Source: Prorocentrum cordatum (taxonomy: Eukaryota > Sar > Dinophyceae > Prorocentrales > Prorocentraceae). Taken from it: a stretch of DNA of 64,000 nt. The DNA is taken from NCBI GenBank assembly GCA_963575745.1, contig CAUYUJ010014542.1, positions 1 to 64,000 of the forward strand. Reading direction: 5' to 3'. The notes beneath the pieces were generated by a model. That model had not been told where the DNA came from. It saw only the letters and a program-made list of their open reading frames with translations, and did not search any database. A program made the translations under genes and the position numbers. Below are positions 22,820 through 64,000 of this stretch, piece after piece; the stretch's first letter is position 1, and each line of letters begins with the position of its first letter.

Positions 22820-23611
22820 GCTGCGCAACGGTGTGAGGAGAGTGCCCAGCAGGAGCAGAGGAGGGACTACTCCTGGGGCGGGCATGGCTGCCGCGGGACT
22901 GACCCCTGAAATTTGGGATACAGCAGCAAAATCGAAATGCCCTGCGGCAGCCGAAACGCCTGCGAATGGCAAGTAGATCGTCGGGGGCCTTCCCCGCGCA
23001 CTTCAGTGGTGCGTGTGGGTGTGGTGTGGTGCTGTGGGTGTGGCGTGTGTGGTGGTACATTTCAGTATCGTCGAGCCTTCCCCTCAGCCAGGGGTTCGTT
23101 TCTCTCCCCTCGAAGGGGCTCGCAACCCACGCGGTCGCCTCCTCCCCCTCGAAGAGAAGGGGTGCTACCTCATCAGCGGTGAGGCGGGGAGGGGGAGGGG
23201 ATGTGCCAGGGCCCCCCCCTCAGTAAGGGGTGCGCGCCCCCTCAAAAAGGGGCACCCCCCTCTCTGGATTGCTTTGCGCGGCAGGCAAGCACAGGGGCCC
23301 GAACGACTCACCCATGATGCAATGCTACTGCTCCCCCCTGCTGCCCCTGCTCACACTGCCCCCCCTCATTAAAGGGGCTCACCCTCAGTAAAGGACGGTG
23401 GTGCCCCTCCGCAAGGGGCCCGTCAAAGATGTTTCAGGGGCTCCCCTCAATCAGGAACACCGCGCCCCCCAACCCCCCTAGGGGGCCCGTCAGATACGGT
23501 TCCCCCCCCCCCCCCCCCCCCCACCCTCAGCCAGGGGCGTTTCGCCCCTCAGCGGGACTCGTCTGGCCCCCATGCAGCGAGGGGGGGTGCACTGCAAGCG
23601 ACCTTTACGAG

Positions 23612-23790
23612 AGAGATTCTCTTAAGAGAATTCTCTTAAGAGAATTCTCTTAAGAGAATTCTCTTAAGAGAATTGTTGGTTTTGCCTGAGACATCCACAC
23701 AATTCTCTTAAGAGAATTCTCTTAAGAGAATTCTCTTAAGAGAATTCTCTTAAGAGAATTCTCTTAAGAGAATTCTCCAAAGAGAATTTC
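23612..23790. repeat. Two arrays of a 14-bp perfect palindrome
   Basis: The unit AATTCTCTTAAGAG repeats head to tail with period 14: about four units at 23,614-23,674, a 25-base unique spacer, then five full units and two decayed ones at 23,699-23,790. Each unit is self-complementary, so the whole region can pair in many registers. Confidence 0.93.
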
Positions 23791-50425: not shown

Positions 50426-51700
50426 AAGGGCTCGCTTCGCTTCGCCTCAAGTCTTGTTCCTGCGTCCAGGCGCTGTAGGGGGACTGCCGAAGGACTCATC
50501 GGAGCGGACAACGTCATGACCAGAAGGGGGGCGGGGGTCATGGGCCGGATGGAGCCCTCACGCCATGGGGAAAGGGCATGGTTGCGACGTGGGCGAAGGT
50601 GAGGATCTCGATGCCAGGGTGGACCCTGACCCCCAAAGGGGTGACGGTTGTGACGTCGAGGGTGTGTACGCCATGACCGCCAACGGGGTGAAGATAGTGG
50701 CAAATCGGGACCTCAGCAGTGGCCTCGAAGCCGATGGGCGGAAACAAAAAACGATGAGACGACCACGAGAGGGCCCGTTGAAGGCGCTGCTCGACTGAGA
50801 GCCGCACCCCCTGATCGAGACGGACTCCTCAATGAGGCTATCATCCTGTCGCTCGAGCAGCAGGCAGATGACCGCGAGAGGGTGAAGATCATGATCCGGG
50901 TTTGGTCCCAATCATGACCTTGACGGAGGTGGCATGGCCATGGTATGGGTGGAGATCATGACTGGGACGGGGCTGATGCAATACGGGGGGGTCACGGCGA
51001 TGATCATGAAGGCGCTTAGGTTGTAACAAGGTCATGAAAATGAGGGACTCCTAGTGTACACCGTGAGAGGTGAATGCGATGACCTCGAGGGAGGTCAAGG
51101 TCACGTCGGCTTAGCTATCCACAAGTGGTCGAAGGCAAAAATAATGAGTTTTACACACCGCCTGACGAAACTGTTCACACCGCCGACGATTCGCGTTTGT
51201 TGGGTCGCTGGCCCCCAGGCCATCGACTTCTTTCTCGAAGTTGTTTTTCTTGTTCATCCCACCTTCGACTTCCCAGCGCTAGACGGCCCTGGCATCTGGA
51301 AGCGGACTTCGGATGCCGAAAATTCGGAGGGGCCGTCGGCGGGGTGATGGTCACGACCAAGCGGGGGCAGTGAGTCGAAAGTGAGCCTGGTAACTCAAAT
51401 AGGGCATATAGCCTGGCAAATTGCATCCATCGCTCTGCTGTGAAGGTACAGTATGAGGGGTGGATGGGTAAGATAGGATAAGATCGATGTAATGATCTTT
51501 CCAGCACATAGCGAACACTCGCGGTGTCCGGGCAAATAGGGCGCGCGTGCCTTGAGCCCAAGGCAGCGGCGCGCGAGCTATGCTCCCGATACTGTAACAC
51601 CTCCCAAAGAGCTACCCTTAAAGTCGGGAGGGGAGGAGACGGAGAGCATAGTCGCACGCAAAGATCGCGCGCACGACTGCTTGCAAAGAAAAGAAAACAG
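50426..51700. other. No gene seen
   Basis: Contains loosely repeated GTGACGG/GATCATGA phrases at 50,580-51,070 and unique sequence to 51,700. Short open frames show no recognisable motif. Confidence 0.4.
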
Positions 51701-51933
51701 TGCGTACAGTCTGGTCAAACACCAGACTGTAAGGCGAGTTTCCTCGCAAAGTATTTCACGCAAATACAGGACAGCCCCTTCAAACAATGAAGGGCTATCG
51801 GCTTAGTTAGAAGTAAGCCAAAATTAGGCCATACCTCACCAAGCAAATGTGTATTAAGGCAAAGAGCCTGAGTTGTACAAAGCCGGCTCGTTGCCAGGCG
51901 TGAAATATAAGGCTCGTTTCCGAGCAGCTAAAG

Positions 51934-51956
51934 GGGCGCCTTTATAGTAGGCGCCC
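51934..51956 (-). repeat. 7-bp hairpin with TATAAA in the loop
   Basis: On the - strand GGGCGCC-TACTATAAA-GGCGCCC lies 39 bases beyond the final ORF stop, next to two GNRA-type hairpins. It could be a promoter or terminal element of an LTR, but no LTR boundary is visible. Confidence 0.6.
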
Positions 51957-51994
51957 GTGCTGGCAAACTGGACCGCGAGGGCAACAAGGACAGA

Positions 51995-54900
51995 CTAAAA
52001 TTGATTAGACTTAGGTTTGTCTCTGTCCTCGGGACCCCGAAAGGGAACAAATTGCTTCACGTCATACTTAAATGACTGAGTGCCTGACATCACTTCCAGA
52101 AGCAGCTCCCGATCGATGCTTCCCTTTGTGTGCCCATCTGCGGTCATATCCCTAGTATCACACCATTGCACATTATGTACTATACCTATATCCATGAGCT
52201 CACGTATCCAGCTGATATGTCCAAGCAGAGTCCGTTCTGTAGGTATTTTGAGATCCCTGCTTGATAAAGATTTGTAGACGGACTCAGCGTCTATGGTAAG
52301 AGAGACTTTGATAGCAAGGCCTCCAACTTCACGCATGTCTCGTAGTTGTCGTGGAGTCAAAGCCCCTGCCTTAAGCTCGTGGAGAGTAATGAGCGTAGGG
52401 TAACACTCATCAAGGTTATGTGCGGCTGCAAGTGCCTCCGCAGCATAACTGGACCTCACCTGTAATCGGTGTGATTTGCATAGTCCGTCACAGAGGTGAA
52501 CGACGGACTTGCCTTGAGGCGAGTTTCCTCGCCGTAGTACGTTGGCCCCGCGTATGCCGTAGCCCTTGGTCTCGTCATCCTCCTCCCCGGTAAGCTTCCG
52601 ATACCCCGAATCGCTATGGATGTCAACTTCATTCGTCGGCTTCATCCGAGGGAAGGTGATGCGTTTCGGGCTGCTGATCAGCTTTCGCGTCACAGCATTC
52701 AAACGTCTGACTTGCAAATTGGTGGGCTCTTGAATTTTCTGAAGAGAGACCACATATACCATGAGCCAGATTTGGGTAAGAAGGGCATAGGCGAGGGCTC
52801 CTCGCAGGCTGACGAACATGTCGGTAATGAGTTTCGTGGCTTTGGCGTCGGCCGCCGCTCCTGTAAGTTCTGGGTGTGTGATAGGACGTAGTTGTTTAAT
52901 GTATTCGTCCTGGTCCATGATCACATCTCCCTGATCATTCTTAGTGTAGCGAACGGCGCAGTTCGTATATGTGTGCTTGTTGAGCTTGCATTTGCCAAAC
53001 ACCTTTTCGACACGTTGTACATAGTCGTCTATATTTTTCTCTAGACCTGTCATATTAATATCATCGACATGTTTTGCCGTCAGAAGGTCTTGGCTGAATT
53101 CAAATTCAGGATCGTAGCTGGTCGGTGTAAGTCCTATAGCTCGTGTGGTCGTACGAAGTTTGAGAGAGAACGCTCTTGGAGCGTCCTTAGTACCCGTTCC
53201 TGGTTTGAGGCATCTAAGACAGCGTCGACTTTCGTCGTAGGATGAGAAGCCGGGTAATGTACGAAGTACCTGAGCGCTTCCTGGTGGAAGAGTAAAGCAA
53301 ACCATGCGAGTTTCCTCGCCGGTGGCATGGGCAAGTTCCTCATAGGTCAAACCCTTGAGGAACGCCTTATCGATATCCATGGATGCTAAGATCCACTCTG
53401 GATGGCATGCCGCTTCACTTGCCAGGAGTCGTTGGGACTGCCTTCGGGCGGTTCCCGAGAATGTTTCCACATCAAAAGCCTCAGTATCCATAAATCCACG
53501 AAGGACCAGTCTGAGACGAATGGTTTTAACGTTCTCGGTACCCATCTTTACGAACTTCCACTTGTATACATATCTGGATGTCATGATGTTGGAAGCTTTG
53601 GATAAATCGTACATCTCAAAGCATCGATTATCAATCCAGATTTTGAGCTCAGTATATAAGGCTTCACTAACCTCCTTTGGATGTGCTGTTATGTCGGCTT
53701 TGGTTAGTAGATCATCTTCTTTGACAACCAGAGCACGTTTAGCAGCAGAGGATACATATACTCTCATCGTTGCGACCATATCGGTATCGAGCTGTGCAAG
53801 TTGAGTCTGATCCAACACTATTTTAGACATTTCTGATGTAAAGCATAGTTCAACGTAAGGACCGTATTCATCACTGTCTAGAGAGTAGCTCTCGTCGGCT
53901 GTGTTTGAACAAAGAGAGACTAGACAGGACTCAAATGATTTCGGCTCGTCTCCGAGCATATCTGATGATATAATATCATCTTCGTCCACAAATGCTGAAA
54001 CCAAAACACACTGGTCGGGCAGCATAGTTGTTGGGACGCAATAAAGATAATCATCGGTAATCGTCGTAGGATGCAGGTCCATACGTAGCTCGTCGTACCA
54101 CTCTTCCAGCATCATAGCTTCAATATTGTGTTCCTCATTTTCCTCATAGATTGTCGACAGACGGCCTTCGCTCGGCGATGAAGCGTCTGGTGTGTCTGGA
54201 GAAGGCCTGTTTCCAGGCGACTCGTGTTCTCCAGACGTGTTGCTTGGATGCTGATATTTAGCCAAATCGTCGTGAAATCCTAAGGAAGGGACACGTGAAG
54301 TCAAGCATTGAATAAGTCTGGAGTGAGTGCTACCAGTGATCTGAGAAATGTTTAAGCCAGTGCCCACGCATTCGTAATAGTGGAACGCCGGGCTGATGTC
54401 GTTGTCATAGTGGATCAGCGTAGACCCGGTGGCGTACTTTACTGCAGGTAAGCTTGACACACTCTTAGCCAATCGAACTGCTACTACATGTTCTACTCGG
54501 AAGTAATTCCGTACGAGATACTGTAGTGCTAAGTGTACGCGCGGGTGAAACTTGCTGTCGTCTGACAGATTAAGGTTTCCCTTGTAATCGGGGATATACC
54601 CGAAAACTTTGGCAGGTTTCCCTGCGCTGAGGTGTGCCACATAAGCAAGGACGGTTTGCATGGCCATATTATCCATGCCAAGTTCCCGTGTGAGGAGACA
54701 TTCGATGTATAGTGTGTGACGAGCATCAGGATACATCACAATTACCTCACGAGATCCTGCCTTGACAACAATATGTCCTCTTTCAGGCACGTTTCGGATC
54801 ACCGGGAATGGGCCGTTCCAGCCTCCATGGTCGTCCTTGGTGGCAGTAGGTCGGTGGTAGTCGACCAAATCCCCTGATGAGTAGAGGCGAGCACCATCAG

Positions 54901-56383
54901 GAGTCGTCTTAGCCCTAAGAGCCCGATTTGTCTTGGCTACAGCAGTAGCCTGAGTTATGGCTTCGAGGCTGACTTCCCTTACACGACGTTCTCGTTCGTG
55001 TCCTGAAGTCTCGGGTCCCTTGGGAAAGTCAAGGGTATCGAGATCAGGAAGGAAGGAGGGCTGACGTCCTGTGTGTGCCTGATATGGCGATACTCCGTTA
55101 TAAAACGTAAACGCATTAGTAACGAAGATGCCTTCCGCCAATACTCTAGTGAATACAACAGGGATGTTGTGTCTATTCAATTCTTCCTCAATCATGTGGA
55201 GGACGCCTCTGAGAATGCCGTTTCGTGACTCAATTGAAGTCGCGTGTTGGCCAGGAGCACGGATACGAAGTTCCGTGCCCTTATTGGCCATCATGGTTTT
55301 AGCGGCATCGTTATTCAGGGCGCCTTCTCCGTCTGAGTATAAAACTTTGAAGGGTCCGCGATAGGCAATCCAGCAATAGTGGTAGGCGTCGATGATAGTG
55401 TCACGTTCTCTGTCGGAAATCTCTAGGCCTGCTGCCAGGCGAATACAACGGTCCATAACATGAAATATGGTCCGTTTCTTGTAAAACATGAGGTCCATTT
55501 CCCCTTCATCGAGCCAGTTACCAGGGAGGCTTATCGATGGTAATGTTGAGTTTCCTGGACGTTCCCATGCTCTACATTCCCGACAGGTATCGCAGATTTC
55601 CTTGATCATGTTCAGTCGAACGTTATCAAGCCCCACCTTTTCGAGGATTAGCCTCATCTTTGGCTCCTTCGCATGATACCATCGCAGATGCAGTTTTCGG
55701 AGTTCCTTTTTCACAACATGGGGTTCGTGACTACGGAGACTCTGTAGACTGTGTTGGATGTCAAATCTCGTCCAGTCGGGTAGTCGTGGAGCCCCAGAGC
55801 CGGTGGAGGCAAGAGGGTTCCTTGTAGCTCTCCGTAGTTGATCCCCTGTGTTGACTGCGTCTGGAGGTGGTGGTACGCCTTGTAGACGTCCGCGGCGGGC
55901 CGCTACCTGTGGCGTGTCACTAGAAGACGCAGAAGGCGTGTTTCCACGCTCGGGGGCGTCTCGTAGTAGGTCGTAGCTGCTAGTACCAGATGTCGGATCG
56001 ACGTTACCGAAGGATCGTGGTCGCGGTGGCCTGGCGCGTGCGCCTTGGCGGCCACCTGAAGCTGAAGCTTGGCCCTCACCAGGTTTAGGTAAGGGTTTCC
56101 ACCAAGCTGGCACGGCTTTGCCTTCGGGGTCGTGGTCGTCTGGTAGTTTAAATGGTTCAGCAAAACGACATTTACCAGGTTCGGTATCAAGGTGGTTCTT
56201 AACACCCTTGCTTCTCGTAAGATCCCTTTGACATGCTGGACATGGCCAATATACAGAGATGGAGTCATGATATTTGCACTGCGTAGGGTCTCTGTTATGG
56301 CTAGGACTGTCCTTTCGGACGTTGTCGATGCATGCCGGGCACGTAGCCACCTTTGGGATGATACGATCCCCGATGCGTCTCAT
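51995..56383 (-). CDS. Copia Pol: integrase, reverse transcriptase, RNase H
   Basis: Intact 1,462-residue frame, ATG at 56,383. Residues 15-75 hold Cys pairs (CPAC, CPAC, C-x-F) like a zinc ribbon. The integrase HHCC region includes LRKLHLRWYHA and CDTCRECRAW, followed by the catalytic triad EMDLMF (~296), YSDGEG (~350) and SIESRNG (~388). RT motifs are SMDIDKAFLKG (~1003) and KHVDDIN (~1105, for YVDD). RNase H shows DIHSDSGYRK (~1255), AAEALAAAH, TIDAESVYKSL and TADGHTKG (~1418). The order integrase-RT-RNase H is that of Ty1/copia. The ATG overlaps the previous ORF's TGA as ATGA, suggesting coupled re-initiation. Seven GNRA-type hairpins, one with a GCAG near-match loop, are translated within it. 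Confidence 0.9.
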   Translation of the reverse strand: MRRIGDRIIPKVATCPACIDNVRKDSPSHNRDPTQCKYHDSISVYWPCPACQRDLTRSKGVKNHLDTEPGKCRFAEPFKLPDDHDPEGKAVPAWWKPLPKPGEGQASASGGRQGARARPPRPRSFGNVDPTSGTSSYDLLRDAPERGNTPSASSSDTPQVAARRGRLQGVPPPPDAVNTGDQLRRATRNPLASTGSGAPRLPDWTRFDIQHSLQSLRSHEPHVVKKELRKLHLRWYHAKEPKMRLILEKVGLDNVRLNMIKEICDTCRECRAWERPGNSTLPSISLPGNWLDEGEMDLMFYKKRTIFHVMDRCIRLAAGLEISDRERDTIIDAYHYCWIAYRGPFKVLYSDGEGALNNDAAKTMMANKGTELRIRAPGQHATSIESRNGILRGVLHMIEEELNRHNIPVVFTRVLAEGIFVTNAFTFYNGVSPYQAHTGRQPSFLPDLDTLDFPKGPETSGHERERRVREVSLEAITQATAVAKTNRALRAKTTPDGARLYSSGDLVDYHRPTATKDDHGGWNGPFPVIRNVPERGHIVVKAGSREVIVMYPDARHTLYIECLLTRELGMDNMAMQTVLAYVAHLSAGKPAKVFGYIPDYKGNLNLSDDSKFHPRVHLALQYLVRNYFRVEHVVAVRLAKSVSSLPAVKYATGSTLIHYDNDISPAFHYYECVGTGLNISQITGSTHSRLIQCLTSRVPSLGFHDDLAKYQHPSNTSGEHESPGNRPSPDTPDASSPSEGRLSTIYEENEEHNIEAMMLEEWYDELRMDLHPTTITDDYLYCVPTTMLPDQCVLVSAFVDEDDIISSDMLGDEPKSFESCLVSLCSNTADESYSLDSDEYGPYVELCFTSEMSKIVLDQTQLAQLDTDMVATMRVYVSSAAKRALVVKEDDLLTKADITAHPKEVSEALYTELKIWIDNRCFEMYDLSKASNIMTSRYVYKWKFVKMGTENVKTIRLRLVLRGFMDTEAFDVETFSGTARRQSQRLLASEAACHPEWILASMDIDKAFLKGLTYEELAHATGEETRMVCFTLPPGSAQVLRTLPGFSSYDESRRCLRCLKPGTGTKDAPRAFSLKLRTTTRAIGLTPTSYDPEFEFSQDLLTAKHVDDINMTGLEKNIDDYVQRVEKVFGKCKLNKHTYTNCAVRYTKNDQGDVIMDQDEYIKQLRPITHPELTGAAADAKATKLITDMFVSLRGALAYALLTQIWLMVYVVSLQKIQEPTNLQVRRLNAVTRKLISSPKRITFPRMKPTNEVDIHSDSGYRKLTGEEDDETKGYGIRGANVLRRGNSPQGKSVVHLCDGLCKSHRLQVRSSYAAEALAAAHNLDECYPTLITLHELKAGALTPRQLRDMREVGGLAIKVSLTIDAESVYKSLSSRDLKIPTERTLLGHISWIRELMDIGIVHNVQWCDTRDMTADGHTKGSIDRELLLEVMSGTQSFKYDVKQFVPFRGPEDRDKPKSNQF

Positions 56384-58497
56384 ACCTTCGCCTGGTTCAG
56401 CTTGCTCAGGAAGGTCGGCAGGATAAGCATGTGCAGACTTATAGGCGCGTTTCCGCGCGTAGTGTCAATGGCTTTCGCCAGATAGACGGCTTCCACGAAG
56501 GCAGACTGCAGTCGTCGAGTATATCTTTGTGCTAGTGAAAGCTCGGTGTTGCACGGTTGTGCGTGCACATGCTGACCGTTGCACTTGAGTCGCTCAAAGG
56601 GTTTAAGAATTGTCTCGTCGTTGCTGGTGATATTTGTCGGCTTCTTAATATAGTCACCAGTCGTATCCTTAAGTCCCGTAGCGCATTGGTCAATGCGCAC
56701 GGTTGTAATGTGTGGTCGGTTGGCAAGCTTCGTCCATGGAGAGATATCGTCCACCCATGTTCCTGTAGGTTGTTCGCGTATAAACCACCTCTGAGCGTCA
56801 TCTTGGGTTACAGCAATTTTACCACAGTAAATTATGTGTGGTAAGTCTTCTCTGTGGTGCTGTTCCCAAGTGTTATAGTTGACTTTGTAGTTATAGTAAG
56901 ATGGTGGTCCTGTGGTGCGGCAGCTGGGTTGCAGCATGGCAACTCGTACGTAGCATATCTTAAAGTAATGATCTATAACCTGCTGCACCGAGGGGTCTCC
57001 CAGGTCGACATATGTAGTCTTGTCCAAGTTGCCGCCTGAGGAAAGTCCCCTTGAGAAGGCAAGCTCTGAGATGCCACCCTCGCCGCCACAAAGCTCCAAC
57101 ATATCCACGCAGTTGTTATGGCCGTAGCATAGTGTAGCAACTATGCTGTATATGTTAGCGTGTGTGTCGGGCATAGATGTGGGGAGGGTAAGGAACAGGT
57201 CATCGTCCTCGTCGGAGCTTATCAGCTCAACAGGGACGTCAGTACTCCAGATTGCCATAAGATCCTGTCCGAGTCCTGACAAGTCGTCGCCGCAATCGTC
57301 ATTTCCGTCTTCGACGTGCTTTTTAATGCGGCGAGGCTTGATGCCTGCTTCCTTTTCGGCTTTGAGCCTCTCCTTCTGTTTTATACGCGATTCAGTGGGT
57401 AAAGCTTGTTCGTCTTGTTCGTCGGTCTGTGTACTCATTGTCGTGGTTGAATGGGTACATGCGTCAATCGCCAGAGTCGGGAGGGGGAGAGAACAGTCAT
57501 CTATGATGACGCGTCGATGTTTCTGTGGTGATTGAGTCGGCTCGTTTCCGAGCAAGACCGGTTCCTCGGGTTGCCAATACAACCGAGTACTGATGTTGGC
57601 AACCCCTGCAGGTAATGGTGCATGCCAATCATACCCTGTTGGTTGATCGGTAACTGAGATATCTTGAATAACCGCGTTGGTATCCAGGTTGATTGTTACA
57701 CGTCGGATGACTTCAGACCATTTTGGTCCTCCCTTATGAGTCGTCACGTAGTGACGGGTATTATGGTCTGTACGTGTATACGTATTTAAGTATACGGGCA
57801 CGTTTCCGTGCGTGGTGGTGCTCCCCAGGATTTTGTCGTTCAAGTGACGGATGAGTATAGTGCGTGTCTGAGCCCGCCATTCAGCATGTCGTACTGTATG
57901 GCCGTACCAATCCAACACATGTTGTGGTATGGCCTGCTTACAGGTACATGTCCACAGCTTCGAGCTGATCGGTATAGATGATGCTACCTGCATATAGGTA
58001 CCGCTTGGTGTACTGTCTTGCATATTGAACCGAATACCGAAATGACACAGACGCATCCGTATTACTGACAACTTTAGATCTTCCAGGGTATCACGTACTG
58101 GAGATAACTTCCAAACATATCCTGGGGGACCAAATATTATAATCTTCATGCGGAGTTTCTTGGCTTTAATCAACAGGTTCTGGATACGTGACCAATGTGG
58201 GGCCACTCTCTTTCCTGGAGTTCGTACGTACCAGTCACCCGGAGTACTAATCCATATGAGAGTGTAATCTCCACTGATCACCGCACCTAGGTAGTTTGTG
58301 CCCACGCTTGTCATAAGTTCGTTGTGGGAAATACGATCACAAATATAACCTCGTGTGCGGAGGTCGGCACATGCCTCCCTCGTATCTTCGATGACAAAAG
58401 CCCTCTTACTAAGGCAGGTTACCCCGCTGTCCTTGTTACCCCCCGGCTTTTCAGCCAACAGGCAAGGCGACGAGGGGGCGACGTCGCCCTGCCATCT
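56380..58497 (-). CDS. Copia ORF with methyltransferase-like domain
   Basis: The frame is open from just after the TGA of the upstream ORF, in the same frame as it, to TGA at 56,380. No ATG lies near the start, so readthrough is possible. The N-terminal half has TLIWISTPGDWYVRTPGKR, KKLRMKIIIFGPPGYVWKL and RMRLCHFGIRFN. The middle is charged. The C-terminal third has DMLELCGGEGGISELAF (glycine-rich, SAM-loop-like), MLQPSCRTTGPPSYYN, GKIAVTQDDAQRWFIREQP, VRIDQCATGLKD, IKKPTNITSNDE and CNGQHVHAQP. I read this as a Rossmann methyltransferase-like fold with an EQP block in place of ENP/ENV. That is inference; the ORF is otherwise unrecognised. Three GNRA hairpins lie inside. Confidence 0.55.
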   Translation of the reverse strand, partial: RWQGDVAPSSPCLLAEKPGGNKDSGVTCLSKRAFVIEDTREACADLRTRGYICDRISHNELMTSVGTNYLGAVISGDYTLIWISTPGDWYVRTPGKRVAPHWSRIQNLLIKAKKLRMKIIIFGPPGYVWKLSPVRDTLEDLKLSVIRMRLCHFGIRFNMQDSTPSGTYMQVASSIPISSKLWTCTCKQAIPQHVLDWYGHTVRHAEWRAQTRTILIRHLNDKILGSTTTHGNVPVYLNTYTRTDHNTRHYVTTHKGGPKWSEVIRRVTINLDTNAVIQDISVTDQPTGYDWHAPLPAGVANISTRLYWQPEEPVLLGNEPTQSPQKHRRVIIDDCSLPLPTLAIDACTHSTTTMSTQTDEQDEQALPTESRIKQKERLKAEKEAGIKPRRIKKHVEDGNDDCGDDLSGLGQDLMAIWSTDVPVELISSDEDDDLFLTLPTSMPDTHANIYSIVATLCYGHNNCVDMLELCGGEGGISELAFSRGLSSGGNLDKTTYVDLGDPSVQQVIDHYFKICYVRVAMLQPSCRTTGPPSYYNYKVNYNTWEQHHREDLPHIIYCGKIAVTQDDAQRWFIREQPTGTWVDDISPWTKLANRPHITTVRIDQCATGLKDTTGDYIKKPTNITSNDETILKPFERLKCNGQHVHAQPCNTELSLAQRYTRRLQSAFVEAVYLAKAIDTTRGNAPISLHMLILPTFLSKLNQAKV

Positions 58498-61400
58498 TCA
58501 AGATGAAGAAGATGTGCCTACAATATCTGCCAGCATCTGGGCTTCCCTCAGATGCTGGAGCTCAGCACTGCAGCGCGCCGTGGCCTCAGAGGCGGATTGC
58601 TCCGCAAATGCTGTCAGCATCGATGGATTATCCATCAGCTGTTTCAGCACGCCTTTGGACCTAGCGTCGCTGACCGTATGCAATTCACGATTAGTGTATC
58701 CCATCACTATTTTACGGCGGGACTGCACAGCGTCCATGGGTACACTACCAACATGCAGGGCCAGTGTCCTGGCAACGAAACAATCGAACGTCTCGAGATC
58801 GTTGATGTTGTCGCCTCGCATGGTGGCCTTGGCGAGCGTCTCCATCAACCCCTGGGGCAGGTTTCCCTGCAATTGATTGCGCTCCTGCGCTGGGGTCGGC
58901 TCGCCTGTCAGCACTGTCTGGAAGGACGTGCTGCTTGAGCTCGAGGCGGGTTGCCCCGCAGCTCCAAAACAGTCACACCTGATCGACAGATGCCCTGACG
59001 GCAACTTTGTCGTCGGCATGATTTTGGAGCCTTCTGGGAGCTCCATTTTGACCTGCCCCTTACCAGGGAATATCAGCTTTTCCTGGCCTCGTTCAAGCAC
59101 GATGATCGTGCGTTTGTCCTGCATACTATCGAGACCTAGGATGGCCGGCAGGTCCTTACCACAGCCTGACACAATGTTCGTCTTGTATGAACCGAGTTGG
59201 GCCGACCCATGGTACTCGCAGGCAATACTGAATGTGCCTACGGTATCCGCTGGGGCCGACCCTTCTCCCACTCCGTTGATATTCAAACGAGAGCGGGGCT
59301 CGAACGTACAAGTACGGCCATGTGCCTCGGCAGCCTGGACGAACTTACGGCTCGTGTTCTCGCCCATGATGTTGATCTTCGAACCGACGTCGATGAGTAT
59401 GGAATTTCCACCATCATCCAAGAACGTCTTACTCGGCTGCTTGATGTGCACAATTTCTGAAGTGTCGGTTGTGTCGGTAGGCGGGTTTCCCCGCGGCACA
59501 TTCGTACTCCCTGGCGGGTTACCCCGCACGACACTGGCATGCGACTCGCTCTCGGCCATGCGTGCCAGGTCAATGTACTGGAAGTACGACACGTGCTGGG
59601 CGTGATCACCACGCTCCTCCCGCCAGTTGGCATACTCATCACGTATGCTCATATACTGCTCGCGGGTAGTGCGCCTTATCAGCGTTAGGTACGAGTGAAG
59701 GGCGATGTCTTGCAGCCCCTCGTTCGTGACGTGATCCCGGTACCGCAGCCACTCCTCGAACTCCTCATTCGTCGCTGAGATGTTGACGGCCCTGGCTGCT
59801 GTTGCTGCTGACGCCGCTGAGGATTCTGATAGGTCTAACGACGGACTATCAGTTTCAGGATTATTGGCATCTAGCATAAATGTTGTGTGCGTATTATCCA
59901 TCTGATTCTGGAAATGTCGTACACGCAACTCGCGCAGCTGATCAGGGCCCAGTGACATCTCAGCCTCGCCTCCACTCTGGGGAGACATCTGAGGAGTATC
60001 ATGCAGGTTTCCCTGCTGAGGCGCCGTCATCGGGATAAGCTGATCAAAATATCCCGTTTCCATAGGCGGCCTTACCTCTTCAGGCAGGTATCCCTGCTGT
60101 TGTGACGGAACTGTCTGCATAGCTAGCATCCTGGACGTCATCTCCTCCACCATGCTCCTCAGCTCCCGCAGCTCTCTCGCTGACTGCTCAGGAGTCTGAC
60201 TAAAGGAGCCGGTCCATGGGAAGGATGATGCTATAATGCCAGGTGCTCGACAGATAGCACATGGTGGCTGCTGGGGATCTCCCTCACGCTGATTTGCGAC
60301 GTGGCCCACCACATTGGAATTCCAGCATCCCTCGTGGAATAGGTGATTGCACCTCAGGCGGTAGACGCTATCCCTGGGCTGAAATTCTTCGAGGCATACC
60401 GCACAGGTATCTTCCATCCCAGTGAAGACTTCTACGTCTGCTACCCTGGGATATACCCGCCGCTGCCTCTCCAATACCGTCTCGGAGGGCATGAAGGCTG
60501 ATGGGGGTGTCCCCGTTGGATTCAGCACTTCCTGCACTTCGACATTTGGCATGGAAGTGGTAGGAGTCACGGCGGGCGAGTTTCCTCGCAAAGGTGAGCC
60601 CCTGTTCCTCACCACATCAAGTGCAGCTGCACGTGACTGATCCCGTACGCTTTGCACCGCCTGCCTCCTCCTGAAACATGCCTGCTGAGTGTGGTGTGTC
60701 TGTCTGATGTAGTCAGGCACGCCCCTACTGCCAGACGATATTGAATGGGCAGTGGGCTGAACAACCACCTCTGGTGATGTTGGTGAAGGCATAAAGGCCA
60801 TGTGCGGGTACATGGAATGGTCGCTGCAGCGCACATTAGTGAGGTTATGCATCTGATCCGCCAATTCACGAACAAATTTGTTCGGAACCCTTGACCCGTC
60901 AGGGTATAATGGCGAATTCATCTGCGTTGGTGGTGGCCTCTGGCCCTGAGACATGCTCGGATGGGCGTTGAACGCCGGGATAAAGGCTCGTTGCCGAGCA
61001 GGGTCCCGTGGGTTGGGACCCTCAGGTTCCCAGGACCAGGCTGGCCTCCACCTCTGCCCACTTGGGTGAGGCAGATTATGGTTCTGCACCTGCTGCACCG
61101 CGGCCGCCACTCTTGAGCGATAGTCGTCAGGTACACCCGCCCTGTGGTGGCTTGGTGTACCAGGCAGGTTTCCCTGCTGACTCGTTGGCGTGCCGGGCGG
61201 CATCATGTTGAGGAGGGCTGTGCTGTGATCAGCCCTAGCCGCAGCTATCCTCTCCATGAGTGTGCCGTTTGCGGCAGGGCGGACAGGTGTCCCGAATGGG
61301 GATTGTGCCGGTGGTGTGCCCAATGGAGTCATGCCCCTTGGAGTGTGCATGCTCTGAGTAGGGCTTCCATGCATTGGTTCAAACCGAGCAGGTCCGCTTG

Positions 61401-61836
61401 TAGGCAGGTTTCCCTGCATGGCCTGACGATTTCTCGTAGCCATAGCGGACATTGCTCCCTGGCCTGCGGCCCAGGGATCCTGCTGGTATAACCTGTCCGC
61501 CAGCTGTTCTACCTGGTCAGGGTTCAGCGCGGCTGCGATCTGATCCAGGTCCGAGGTACTAATGGCCTGCCAAGACACGGCACTAGGCCCTTGGCTTGGG
61601 GCACGGCTTGGAGCCGCGCTCCCGGCCTCACTCTCGGTGATCATGAAGATCCGAAAGATCTCAGGCTGGTTTCCCAGCTGGGTAGGGCTGTAGTGGTCCC
61701 CAACTTCCCTGTGGGGGTAGACCATGGGGGGGTCGACGCCCTCCTTGGTCTTGGGACCACTGGTACTTAACGCTGGAAGTACCAACGTCAGCCCACCTGT
61801 CAGGAGCAGACATCGTTGCGACAGAGACTCGCGCAT
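58498..61836 (-). CDS. Copia Gag-like ORF with RING finger and aspartic protease
   Basis: ATG at 61,836 in a good context; 1,112 residues. A Pro/Gln-rich N-terminal ~470 residues is followed by a RING-H2-like finger (CAVCLEEFQPRDSVYRLRCN, HLFHEGCW, then CAICR, ~residues 478-530). The protease region (~810-930) has ILIDVGSKINIMG in the position of D-T/S-G and AILGLDSM as the second signature, so the active site would read DVGS. Between them are helical segments (EFEEWLRYRDHVTNEG, YMSIRDEYANWREERGDH) that could be capsid. It ends DIVGTSSSS and TGA at 58,498. About a dozen GNRA-type hairpins sit in its linkers, read as QGNLP or RGNPP. Confidence 0.72.
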   Translation of the reverse strand: MRESLSQRCLLLTGGLTLVLPALSTSGPKTKEGVDPPMVYPHREVGDHYSPTQLGNQPEIFRIFMITESEAGSAAPSRAPSQGPSAVSWQAISTSDLDQIAAALNPDQVEQLADRLYQQDPWAAGQGAMSAMATRNRQAMQGNLPTSGPARFEPMHGSPTQSMHTPRGMTPLGTPPAQSPFGTPVRPAANGTLMERIAAARADHSTALLNMMPPGTPTSQQGNLPGTPSHHRAGVPDDYRSRVAAAVQQVQNHNLPHPSGQRWRPAWSWEPEGPNPRDPARQRAFIPAFNAHPSMSQGQRPPPTQMNSPLYPDGSRVPNKFVRELADQMHNLTNVRCSDHSMYPHMAFMPSPTSPEVVVQPTAHSISSGSRGVPDYIRQTHHTQQACFRRRQAVQSVRDQSRAAALDVVRNRGSPLRGNSPAVTPTTSMPNVEVQEVLNPTGTPPSAFMPSETVLERQRRVYPRVADVEVFTGMEDTCAVCLEEFQPRDSVYRLRCNHLFHEGCWNSNVVGHVANQREGDPQQPPCAICRAPGIIASSFPWTGSFSQTPEQSARELRELRSMVEEMTSRMLAMQTVPSQQQGYLPEEVRPPMETGYFDQLIPMTAPQQGNLHDTPQMSPQSGGEAEMSLGPDQLRELRVRHFQNQMDNTHTTFMLDANNPETDSPSLDLSESSAASAATAARAVNISATNEEFEEWLRYRDHVTNEGLQDIALHSYLTLIRRTTREQYMSIRDEYANWREERGDHAQHVSYFQYIDLARMAESESHASVVRGNPPGSTNVPRGNPPTDTTDTSEIVHIKQPSKTFLDDGGNSILIDVGSKINIMGENTSRKFVQAAEAHGRTCTFEPRSRLNINGVGEGSAPADTVGTFSIACEYHGSAQLGSYKTNIVSGCGKDLPAILGLDSMQDKRTIIVLERGQEKLIFPGKGQVKMELPEGSKIMPTTKLPSGHLSIRCDCFGAAGQPASSSSSTSFQTVLTGEPTPAQERNQLQGNLPQGLMETLAKATMRGDNINDLETFDCFVARTLALHVGSVPMDAVQSRRKIVMGYTNRELHTVSDARSKGVLKQLMDNPSMLTAFAEQSASEATARCSAELQHLREAQMLADIVGTSSSS

Positions 61837-62514
61837 GGCGGCTCCCCAAATACTCTGGATTACGCCATTGCCTTCCTGTGGTCAGATCCTCTACATGAGA
61901 GATGTAATACGGTTCAATGATACCGTTATCTCCCTCGGACAAGAGGACTCCGTTATCGGACCAACAGAACTTCATACCATCTTGTATGGCCTGACGCCAA
62001 TCTACGAAGATGATGATGTTGAATCTGGGTCCCACCCACTGTTCACGGCACGGCGGCGAACTGTCGGCACGAAGTGAATGTGCGAACGGCCTGTCCCCTT
62101 TTTCTTCGTGTTGTGCTCAGGTCTACAGGACAGGCCGTGCCACATAATACCTTCGAAAGCATGCCATCGAGTGCCATGCATGGCGACTTCAGGGTATGGG
62201 GCCGGTCTCCCGGCAGGTTGGTCGCACAGTACAATGTAGCTGTACAGCGACCATGGAGCTTTCAATGTCCATGAATGCCCCTGAGAGGCGCGGATGAAGA
62301 TAGCGGGCTCGCCAGAGTCCCGCATTAACACCTTGAACTGTAGGCGCTGTTTTTCTTCTCCGTCTGGTTCACGGACATGAACAACTGCCATCATGATGGC
62401 TGCCAGTTGGTCAACCGAGCGCCTACATATGCTCGTTGATGACCTTGGCCTCGTCATACTTTGGGCTATACCCAGCATGTCTTGATTGACCTGTGTTCCA
62501 CGGATAATGGTCAA
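61661..62514 (-). pseudogene. KptA/Tpt1 RNA 2'-phosphotransferase, middle and C-terminal parts in two frames
   Basis: The middle part (frame open 62,514-62,002) has KQRLQFKVL, FIRASQGHSW (62,300), MHGTRWHAFEGIMWHGL (62,180) and RSHIHFVP (62,090). The last part (frame open 62,035-61,661) has FNIIIFVDWRQAIQDGMKF and CWSDNGVLLSEGDNGI. These match the KptA/Tpt1 core: R.R..QGHS, HGT...I...GL, R.H.H, and S.NGV.LT near the end. Known members use NAD+ to remove the 2'-phosphate left by RNA ligation. The domain begins in the ORF that ends at 62,423 and crosses a +1 change at about 62,430 and a -1 change near 62,045, a compensating pair, so either this copy is damaged or both are recoded. Confidence 0.8.
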
Positions 62515-64000
62515 CGAGTTCCACTAGGTTAACCCAACCATCATGATCATCGAAAGATTCCAAGCGCCACACAGGACTGTGTTGCTTGTCTGGCGCATGT
62601 CTGCATATCCTGCTGAGAGCTTTGCTCAGCTGTTTGAGAATATCATTGGATGTGGGAAGGATTCCAGCTTTCCTGCATTCCTTCATGAATGTCTCATCCA
62701 CCGAGCGTATCGGTGGGAGCTTCCGAAGCGCAAGTCTATCCCTGATCACATTTGGAGTCCCACTAGTGAAGGACGTGTCACCTGGGTGGTGCAGCTGAAC
62801 CACTGGCGGGTTTCCCCGCATCGGAGCCTCTGTTGCTGAAGAGGCTGCGGCTCCAGAAGAGGAGGAAGCTGCGGCGGCAGCGCCTGGCGGGTTTCCCCGC
62901 GGAGATGCGCGACTGACGCTGCCCCTGATCTTCGGCACCCAGGTACCCCTCGACATAGCTCCTTCATCGGACCTCCTGGAACGAGCCGCCACAGGCGAAG
63001 CTGGCGCAGGTGCATGCCCGCTGCGCTCGAAAGCTGCCGCCCTTTTCGCAATGGAATTGCTGCGACTAAGCGGGCGTCTTCGTTCCTCCATAGGGTCCTG
63101 AGGTTGCTGCTTGGGCACAGACGCTTGTGGAGGAGTTGCGCCAATCGGCGGCTTCGGCGTCGCAGATCGAGGCACCTCCATATGCGCGTCTGGCCCAGGG
63201 TCCTGAGGGCTCGTCTTCGGTTTCGGCACCGGGGACGGCTTAGGTGTCGGGGGTTCACTCTTGGCCTTCGAAGTTAGTGGGAGTGGGGGCCTTGTAGCCC
63301 TCTTCATGTAGATCTTACTAGAATCTTCCAACATCTTGCGAGTTGCCTCGCGAGTGCGGTCTTCTGCTGCCCGCATACGCTCCTCATCCTCCGCCACGCG
63401 TTGAGCCTTTATCTCATCCTTGATTGTCGGTTCTGGTTGTTGGGACTGGCTAGAGACGCCAGGCGAGTTTCCTCGCATGCTAGGAAGACTGAAGAGCGCG
63501 TCTTTCTCTTCCTGGGTCATGGCTACCAGTCCCCTTGGAACCGGGGTAGGCTTTTCTTCTTCTTTCGGATCCAAGTGGCCCAAGATCCCGAGACGATGAT
63601 TCACTTCCGCGATCTCGTCCTGCGCCATCGGGATAAGTGGCGGATGGCCCTCTTTAGGAGGGGTTTTGCCCCTGTTGGGACTCAGGCCTTCGTTGTTGCC
63701 AACGGGGCATCCTGGCCTGTGATTCTGGAACGGCCGGGAACAAGGTCCGCATGCTGCGTGAGGCCTATACTGCTTGCGCGCCGCGATAATATCTTGCAAC
63801 TGAGTCCGCACTTCTGGAATTTCAGGGCGGCGGATGTTTGTTGCAAGCTGATAGCCTCCGCGGATGGGCTTGCCATCACTGTCCCTATAGGCAGGGTTGC
63901 CCTGGCCAAAGGCCGAGTGTTCCCCTTTTCGGCGTCTTGGGTCGTTGTACGGAAGTAGCTGGCCACCTCTCCTGAGAGCGTGTTCTTTTGGGCCAGCCTG
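62423..64000 (-). CDS. Pro-rich ORF ending in N-terminal half of KptA/Tpt1 domain (partial)
   Basis: The frame is open from the window edge (64,000) to TAG at 62,423, so the start is outside. Most of it is Pro/Ala/Lys/Arg-rich and low in complexity, with GN-type hairpin-encoded peptides (RGNSPG, RGNPPG, RGNPPV). A short Cys block (HAACGPCSRPFQN) lies near 63,760. From about 62,629 it becomes ordered: LSKALSRICRHAPDK and DHDGWVNLVELVDHYPW, the RH and DGWV..(D/E)L signatures that open KptA/Tpt1 proteins, then YDEAKVINEHM and the stop. The remainder of the domain follows at once in the +1 frame. Five clear hairpins are inside. Confidence 0.75.
   Translation of the reverse strand, partial: QAGPKEHALRRGGQLLPYNDPRRRKGEHSAFGQGNPAYRDSDGKPIRGGYQLATNIRRPEIPEVRTQLQDIIAARKQYRPHAACGPCSRPFQNHRPGCPVGNNEGLSPNRGKTPPKEGHPPLIPMAQDEIAEVNHRLGILGHLDPKEEEKPTPVPRGLVAMTQEEKDALFSLPSMRGNSPGVSSQSQQPEPTIKDEIKAQRVAEDEERMRAAEDRTREATRKMLEDSSKIYMKRATRPPLPLTSKAKSEPPTPKPSPVPKPKTSPQDPGPDAHMEVPRSATPKPPIGATPPQASVPKQQPQDPMEERRRPLSRSNSIAKRAAAFERSGHAPAPASPVAARSRRSDEGAMSRGTWVPKIRGSVSRASPRGNPPGAAAAASSSSGAAASSATEAPMRGNPPVVQLHHPGDTSFTSGTPNVIRDRLALRKLPPIRSVDETFMKECRKAGILPTSNDILKQLSKALSRICRHAPDKQHSPVWRLESFDDHDGWVNLVELVDHYPWNTGQSRHAGYSPKYDEAKVINEHM

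Follow-up and report, generated by a model that had tools for sequence, protein, structure and literature searches.

A uniform GNRA-type hairpin repeated across a Copia-type retrotransposon of Prorocentrum cordatum and its possible role as a dispersed RNA signal

Why should a retrotransposon carry the same small hairpin again and again across its coding and untranslated sequence? The question is raised by a 64,000-nucleotide stretch of the genome of the dinoflagellate Prorocentrum cordatum (GCA_963575745.1, contig CAUYUJ010014542.1, positions 1 to 64,000; hereafter the window), where most of a long terminal repeat (LTR) retrotransposon of the Copia type, namely its 3′ part, occupies the minus strand from about 51373 upward. 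This strand, the sense strand of the element, holds 30 perfect hairpins of the form GCNNN-loop-NNNGC between 51734 and 63476 (Table 1), in which an outer GC is followed by two pairs that vary freely, then by a G-C pair that hardly varies, and finally by a GNRA loop (GCNNG-GNRA-CNNGC). The loops fit GNRA in 27 cases (20 GAAA, 4 GCAA, 2 GAGA, and 1 GTAA), the others being GATA, GACA, and GCAG, and the stems occur in 12 distinct sequences. An initial annotation, made from the letters of the window alone, had reported 29 sites with 11 stem sequences, 27 GNRA loops and two exceptions, GATA and GCAG. The observation is real, but the GC-anchored count is 30, adding 58760-58773, whose GACA loop makes a third exception, and dropping 63691-63704 (CGTTG-GCAA-CAACG), which has no GC anchor, probably arose by chance and was excluded as a family site; stem sequences number 12. 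The set of 30 requires GC at the base of the stem and leaves out 56683-56696, which is GC-anchored and paired with a GACC loop. As the same annotation had noted, several frames are used and two sites lie outside open reading frames (ORFs): 19 hairpins are translated as xGNyP, 6 in the AGKPA frame, and 3 in the GEETR frame, so that the motif occurs in all reading frames and in untranslated parts.

Chance is rejected as the origin of these hairpins, both by shuffled controls and by a test that does not select for pairing. Perfect 5-bp GNRA hairpins with any stem number 28 on the sense strand and 2 on the other strand between 51000 and 64000, and 3 and 3 between 1 and 51000. In 1000 dinucleotide shuffles of 51700-63999 the mean was 0.43 and the maximum 3 GNRA hairpins, against 28 observed, and in 1000 synonymous codon shuffles of five ORFs the mean was 1.96 and the maximum 8, against 26 observed, which bears out the excess over such controls that the initial annotation had proposed to look for. 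Since hairpins chosen for pairing necessarily pair, sites were also picked by GCnnnGnnAnnnGC alone (outer GC...GC, loop with first G and last A) and not by inner pairing. Full inner pairing was found in 29 of 37 such anchored sites on the sense strand of the element, in 0 of 2 on its antisense strand, and elsewhere in the window in 1 of 30 and 4 of 31. A covariation score computed on the 37 anchored sites (26 distinct) reached 0.507 compared with 0.128 after shuffling, a value attained in 0 of 500 shuffles, while slid partners gave at most 0.125; two weaker covariation measures on the same sites were unremarkable (two-sided-change pairs, 3 versus 2.5; further pair types, 11 versus 8.8). Local folding prediction gave a mean pair probability above 0.5 for 27 of the 30 hairpins on the sense strand. 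A genome-wide host feature was likewise rejected within the scope of the window, whose other 51 kb is near chance.

The hairpins recur in other copies of the element in the same genome. The exact word GGCAGGTTTCCCTGC occurs 2668 plus 2581 times, compared with 0 plus 3 for its reversed control, and among the places listed it is mostly found several times within about 10 kb, with few single occurrences. A search with the reverse transcriptase part, in which the best 114 of 11119 first-look candidates were scored, returned sequences 97-100% identical, 112 of them without an internal stop. Twenty further copies, hand-picked for spacing from the first listed places and not at random, were read over 10 kb each; where they align, they match the window element at 77-97% identity. 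Each has 16-21 GC-anchored GNRA hairpins, and the totals are 371 on the sense and 0 on the antisense strand, or 383 and 15 without the anchor requirement, in line with the earlier claim that the GNRA class marks the sense strand. Perfect pairing is found in 418 of 451 copy-by-site cells, and 23 sites are kept in 15-21 of the 21 copies.

Comparison of these copies revealed strong constraint at bases that the protein leaves free. For the 23 window sites reachable in the 20 copies, with locally less than half-identical stretches left out and flanks taken within some 60 bases, fourfold-degenerate third positions differ from the window in 8 of 881 cases in stems (0.9%), 1343 of 7814 in flanks (17.2%), and 26 of 314 at loop position 2 (8.3%). 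For the seven copies less than 87% identical, the corresponding counts are 5/297, 914/2604, and 16/107, and columns variable in at least 3 copies amount to 0 of 45 in stems, 3 of 16 at loop position 2, and 190 of 401 in flanks. Fisher p-values for this comparison should not be taken at face value because the copies are related. When five other copies served as the reference in turn, which removes the bias from choosing sites in the window, the answer was the same (stems 0.7-1.1%, flanks 18-40%, loop position 2 12-24%). With fourfold stem bases nearly frozen relative to flanks and loop position 2, peptide selection alone is excluded, as the initial annotation had argued from the frames; the alternative it had named, a conserved peptide with third-position changes that break pairs, is not what the 8 changes in 881 comparisons look like. 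Loop changes among the 451 comparisons, 5 at position 1, 26 at position 2, 29 at position 3, and 10 at position 4, follow the GNRA pattern, with the caveat that the main frame makes position 2 synonymous and position 3 often a change from Asn to Asp. The hairpins are thus held under constraint as nucleic-acid structure, a conclusion we state with high confidence.

Two-sided stem differences between copies were found at three sites in all. At 60084-60097, 14 of 20 copies have GCAGG/CCTGC, 4 have GCGGG/CCCGC, and 2 are in between. At a site in the 5′ part, among nine sequences, GCTCG/CGAGC is present in 2 and GCTGG/CCAGC in 4, the stem being broken in L030 and unalignable in L034 and the window not covering it; at a second 5′-part site, again among nine sequences, GCGAG/CTCGC and GCGGG/CCCGC are present in 4 each, and L030 does not cover it. 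More distant proteins show residue changes of a matching kind. At aligned places P0001 (41% identical) has RGNAP for RGNSP, RGNTP for QGYLP, and HGNVP for QGNLP, and P0003 (74% identical) has RGDTP in place of RGNAP, swaps that reverse-complementary codons could encode. In the xGNyP frame the residues flanking GN need such codons, which supplies a general test of codon compatibility: among nearer relatives, 87 of 235 variable xG(N/D)y sites are compatible, compared with 43.0 after permutation (maximum 64 in 2000), while conserved sites give 19 of 96 with 14.1 expected and variable sites of far relatives 13 of 89 with 14.9 expected. The excess remains on shuffling inside aligned places (72 of 190, mean 54.7, maximum 67 in 1000).

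The hairpins extend over nearly the whole element. In the part of copy C436 that lies beyond the window end, 9 more hairpins are present with 0 on the antisense strand, 3 of them at about 217-323 nt past the probable 5′ LTR; taken together with the window, the motif spans from about 217 nt after that LTR to about 106 nt before the 3′ LTR, and a full-length element would carry up to about forty hairpins. No hairpin motif occurs in the LTR segment, which at less than 300 bases carries little weight. This span, from near one LTR to near the other, in all frames and in untranslated sequence, is best fitted by a cis signal on the full-length sense RNA.

The interpretation to which we incline, tentatively and at slightly less than even odds, is that the hairpins are dispersed packaging or assembly signals on the element RNA, read by its Gag-like protein. 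The part of C436 outside the window encodes a protein with a CCHC zinc knuckle (22.0 bits, cut-off 20.8) beside an arginine-rich stretch, and so resembles a Gag nucleocapsid. In L006 this stretch is identical at 55/64 residues, compared with 62% identity over the main alignment of the protein; there the arginine-rich stretch and the CCHC knuckle are in different frames. Briefly, the dispersed hairpins would serve in the sense RNA as recognition sites, through which the element's own Gag nucleocapsid would pick and condense the genomic RNA. The putative reader, an arginine-rich protein with a CCHC knuckle whose coding sequence lies towards the 5′ end, would recognize the loop and the fixed pairs and leave the two inner pairs free, and the step served would be packaging or assembly. 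Hairpin sets would turn over between families because each Gag would read the set of its own family. Both the reader and the packaging step are proposed here from sequence.

The choice of a Gag-read packaging signal draws on this protein and on two precedents. In the complex of the phage lambda N peptide with the boxB hairpin, reportedly described by Legault in 1998, an arginine-rich motif reads a GNRA-type fold. The element resembles this system in its short stems, its GNRA-type loops, and an encoded arginine-rich stretch whose contact with the hairpins is putative, and differs in having tetraloops in about 30 copies, whereas boxB is a pentaloop present in few copies and acting in antitermination. 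Many dispersed hairpins read by a capsid protein have been proposed, in the account given by PMC6281560, for MS2, picornaviruses, and hepatitis B virus pregenomic RNA. Those systems share with the element many hairpins over one genome, a common motif, and a variable remainder; unlike them, the element has a more uniform motif and perfect stems, its carrier is an LTR retrotransposon, and binding is putative. No counterpart, in the sense of such hairpins in a retrotransposon, was found among the matches listed from the open-access literature, and an Rfam scan of the window gave 0 matches at the gathering score.

Several observations weigh against this reading. Ty1, the best-studied Copia-type element, is similar in type and its Gag selects its own RNA, but its packaging signal, as proposed in PMC8396678, lies at +230-580 near a 5′ pseudoknot and is not dispersed. 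The antisense strand is predicted to form 21 of the 30 hairpins too, and in 30 distinct imperfect stem alleles the altered pairs are 13 G-U, 11 A-C, and 7 other, a distribution without clear preference; the comparison is therefore uninformative as a strand test, and the sense RNA is singled out by the loop class alone and not by wobble. That class is itself not independent of the peptide in 19 of 30 sites, since GN in the loop is favoured by the xGNyP frame. The 87 codon-compatible sites include at least 13 plain protein motifs (HFGDK 5 times, NGDV-like 8 times), so that 87 overstates the hairpins, and P0004, P0020, and P0022 have 0 compatible xGNy sites, with several nearer relatives having none or one. 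Broken stems are also found in the 5′ part (L030, L031, L032, and L033), and in a 63-bp segment shared by 8 of the 21 copies the motif pairs perfectly in L029 but is mispaired in the other seven.

A different RNA-level role is a possibility of some substance, though on balance an improbable one: the GNRA loops might dock into helices to fold or dimerize the long RNA, or be bound by a host protein for export, stability, or translation. GNRA loops are known modules of tertiary contact, and dispersal across the internal region would suit compaction. The structural evidence, namely anchored pairing, sense-only copies, fourfold constraint, and two-sided changes, is the same as for packaging signals, while a related copy encodes its own nucleocapsid-like protein, which makes a host reader less needed.

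That the hairpins act in single-stranded complementary DNA, or that their arms are perfected by a mutational process such as template switching, seems unlikely. Arms that are perfect while sequences vary between sites, imperfect alleles in which G-U is not preferred over A-C, and an opposite strand that also folds at 21 of 30 sites would all agree with it; however, a perfecting process would not keep fourfold stem bases at 0.9% versus 17%, nor would it hold loop position 1 (5/451) while positions 2 and 3 vary (26 and 29/451).

The initial annotation had offered an RNA-level function or a mobile hairpin as alternatives; fourfold constraint, two-sided changes, and the loop class support a function at the level of structure, and mobility receives little support. 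We regard as quite improbable a mini-hairpin of about 15-21 nt spreading as a selfish unit. Palindromic mobile units inside genes, such as the Rickettsia palindromic elements and the yeast mitochondrial GC clusters, are longer, whereas the present hairpins are 14-15 nt, mostly site-stable among copies and strongly constrained. Unit-sized stretches are present in P0016 and missing from P0017 (76% identical), so that whole-hairpin gain or loss in aligned relatives, which the annotation had suggested following, is seen at the peptide level, and relatives have family-specific repeated peptides. Within the family, 23 sites are common to 15-21 of 21 copies, and strict conservation at free bases would be unexpected for passive inserts. 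Among 37 aligned sites of the 21 copies, 14 are perfect in a single copy, for the most part in regions that few copies cover; none of the five inspected (0/5) is a clean new insertion or has a target-site duplication, and they do not support recent mobility inside the family. Of these, two in L018 come from the 3′ untranslated region but were aligned with coding columns, a third in L018 lies in unrelated sequence, that in L028 is a 33-bp tandem duplication, and that in L029 belongs to the 63-bp segment described above.

That xGNyP peptide spacers are conserved and pairing is a by-product is scarcely credible, since, although 19 of 30 sites share one reading frame, fourfold third positions hardly change in the stems, unlike those at loop position 2 and in the flanks, nine sites are in other frames and two outside ORFs, and synonymous shuffles reach at most 8 compared with 26.

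Under the preferred reading, in which a Gag-like protein would read the hairpins as packaging signals, relatives may be expected to differ in their sets. Repeated peptides are family-specific, with 8 copies of PG(N/D)R(I/T) in P0016, 4 of PG(N/D)R(I/V) in P0017, HGNVH-like peptides in P0011, and TGNG in P0015, and hairpins are predicted behind them. The DPGNRIP of P0016, as a prediction only, is codable as a 7-bp stem round GAAA (GATCCGG-GAAA-CCGGATC). A search for relatives at the DNA level returned nothing from viral contigs and one sequence from genome contigs, L001. In L001, the only distant relative read as DNA (5.5 kb, 28% identical), there is no GNRA hairpin with a stem of 4, 5, or 6 on either strand; this sequence is a pol fragment in a contig of a Planctomycetota metagenome-assembled genome (NYVR01000130.1), probably a eukaryotic contaminant. 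The array thus seems to characterize a single clade, with units slowly gained, lost, and rewritten. A more specific proposal, which we consider doubtful, is a family-specific hairpin code, with a constant GNRA loop, family stems and about 40 tags per RNA, that would co-evolve with the arginine-rich Gag, so that each family, among thousands of copies, would package only its own RNA and sets would be rewritten on divergence; the case for such a code is argued from the repeated peptides.

The remaining parts of the element are collected in Table 1. Judged against C436, the full element would be about 16 kb long, with some 3.3 kb outside the window. The LTR assignment is based on a 274-column alignment, with 88% identity, of window 51373-51628 and L030:2168-2441, the latter sitting upstream of the 5′ part of C436; both are probably LTRs, the comparison being between segments of two copies and not the two ends of one element. 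The 3′ untranslated region (51590-51994, minus strand) folds far better than shuffled sequence (z = -8.05) and also has longer hairpins, for instance a 10-bp stem at about 51708-51732. Pfam gave no integrase match in the pol ORF of the window, and in relative P0026 an rve match precedes that to RVT_2, neither reaching its cut-off. By eye, the N-terminal part of the KptA/Tpt1 domain is found in the overlapping upstream ORF 62426-63811 in another frame, and the split between 62005-62514 and 62426-63811 appears to be a frameshift or a programmed shift. The 462-amino-acid ORF at 62426-63811 has no homologs at E ≤ 0.001. Part of the RING-finger ORF (58501-61836) presumably resembles an aspartic protease, and the ORF at 56383-58458 has what we take to be a degenerate C5 DNA-methyltransferase fold. 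PC and ENPxGS motifs are present in the distant relatives P0038 and P0039, and Pfam gave no methylase match in the proteins scanned. Methyltransferases have been reported in other dinoflagellate retrotransposons, Copia elements being described without them in that account (PMC5890265). Elsewhere in the window, 23610-23788 is a tandem array of a 14-bp unit, AGAGAATTCTCTTA, itself nearly palindromic. A P. cordatum protein gave a match of 94% over 87 residues. The assembly behind the window is 4.13 Gb, and the genome of P. cordatum is given as ~4.15 Gbp (PMC10449503).

Table 1. Positions in the window of the parts of the retrotransposon and of the 30 GC-anchored hairpins on its sense strand
Feature	Position	Strand	Remarks
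5′-most window ORF, 462 amino acids	62426..63811	-	frame open to window end
ORF with KptA/Tpt1 RNA 2′-phosphotransferase domain	62005..62514	-	PF01885, 37.4 bits, cut-off 26
ORF with RING finger	58501..61836	-	Pfam PF17123 and PF13639 above cut-off; homolog P0001
692-amino-acid ORF	56383..58458	-	joined to pol in relatives such as P0003
pol ORF	51998..56383	-	Copia-type reverse transcriptase RVT_2; Pfam PF07727, 36.5 bits, cut-off 31.6
Probable 3′ LTR	51373..51628	-	88% identical to L030:2168-2441; no hairpin motif
GCGAG-GAAA-CTCGC	63463..63476	-	
GCGAG-GCAA-CTCGC	63338..63351	-	REATR frame
GCGGG-GAAA-CCCGC	62887..62900	-	
GCGGG-GAAA-CCCGC	62806..62819	-	
GCCGG-GAGA-CCGGC	62201..62214	-	AGRPA frame
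GCTGG-GAAA-CCAGC	61665..61678	-	
GCAGG-GAAA-CCTGC	61404..61417	-	
GCAGG-GAAA-CCTGC	61164..61177	-	
GCTCG-GCAA-CGAGC	60986..60999	-	
GCGAG-GAAA-CTCGC	60576..60589	-	
GCAGG-GATA-CCTGC	60084..60097	-	GCGGG/CCCGC in 4/20 copies
GCAGG-GAAA-CCTGC	60003..60016	-	
GCGGG-GTAA-CCCGC	59514..59527	-	loop varies among copies; stem perfect in 21/21
GCGGG-GAAA-CCCGC	59481..59494	-	
GCGGG-GCAA-CCCGC	58946..58959	-	AGQPA frame
GCAGG-GAAA-CCTGC	58857..58870	-	
GCCAG-GACA-CTGGC	58760..58773	-	loop not GNRA; absent from the initial annotation
GCGGA-GCAA-TCCGC	58592..58605	-	
GCACG-GAAA-CGTGC	57798..57811	-	
GCTCG-GAAA-CGAGC	57540..57553	-	
GCGCG-GAAA-CGCGC	56445..56458	-	
GCGTG-GAAA-CACGC	55936..55949	-	
GCCTG-GCAG-CAGGC	55427..55440	-	loop not GNRA
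GCAGG-GAAA-CCTGC	54612..54625	-	AGKPA frame
GCCTG-GAAA-CAGGC	54205..54218	-	
GCTCG-GAGA-CGAGC	53944..53957	-	
GCGAG-GAAA-CTCGC	53306..53319	-	inside reverse transcriptase domain, GEETR frame
GCGAG-GAAA-CTCGC	52519..52532	-	
GCTCG-GAAA-CGAGC	51912..51925	-	3′ untranslated region
GCGAG-GAAA-CTCGC	51734..51747	-	3′ untranslated region

Taken as a whole, the element shows with unusual clarity how a single hairpin motif can be repeated about thirty times over a coding genome; fourfold sites in the stems diverge about twenty-fold or more below their surroundings, and the copies offer natural compensatory variants. The array also has a bearing on the way in which families of elements in giant dinoflagellate genomes distinguish their own RNA from that of many relatives. 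If Gag does read the hairpins, this would be a eukaryotic retrotransposon with the dispersed packaging signals that have been proposed for RNA viruses, uniform enough for a direct test.

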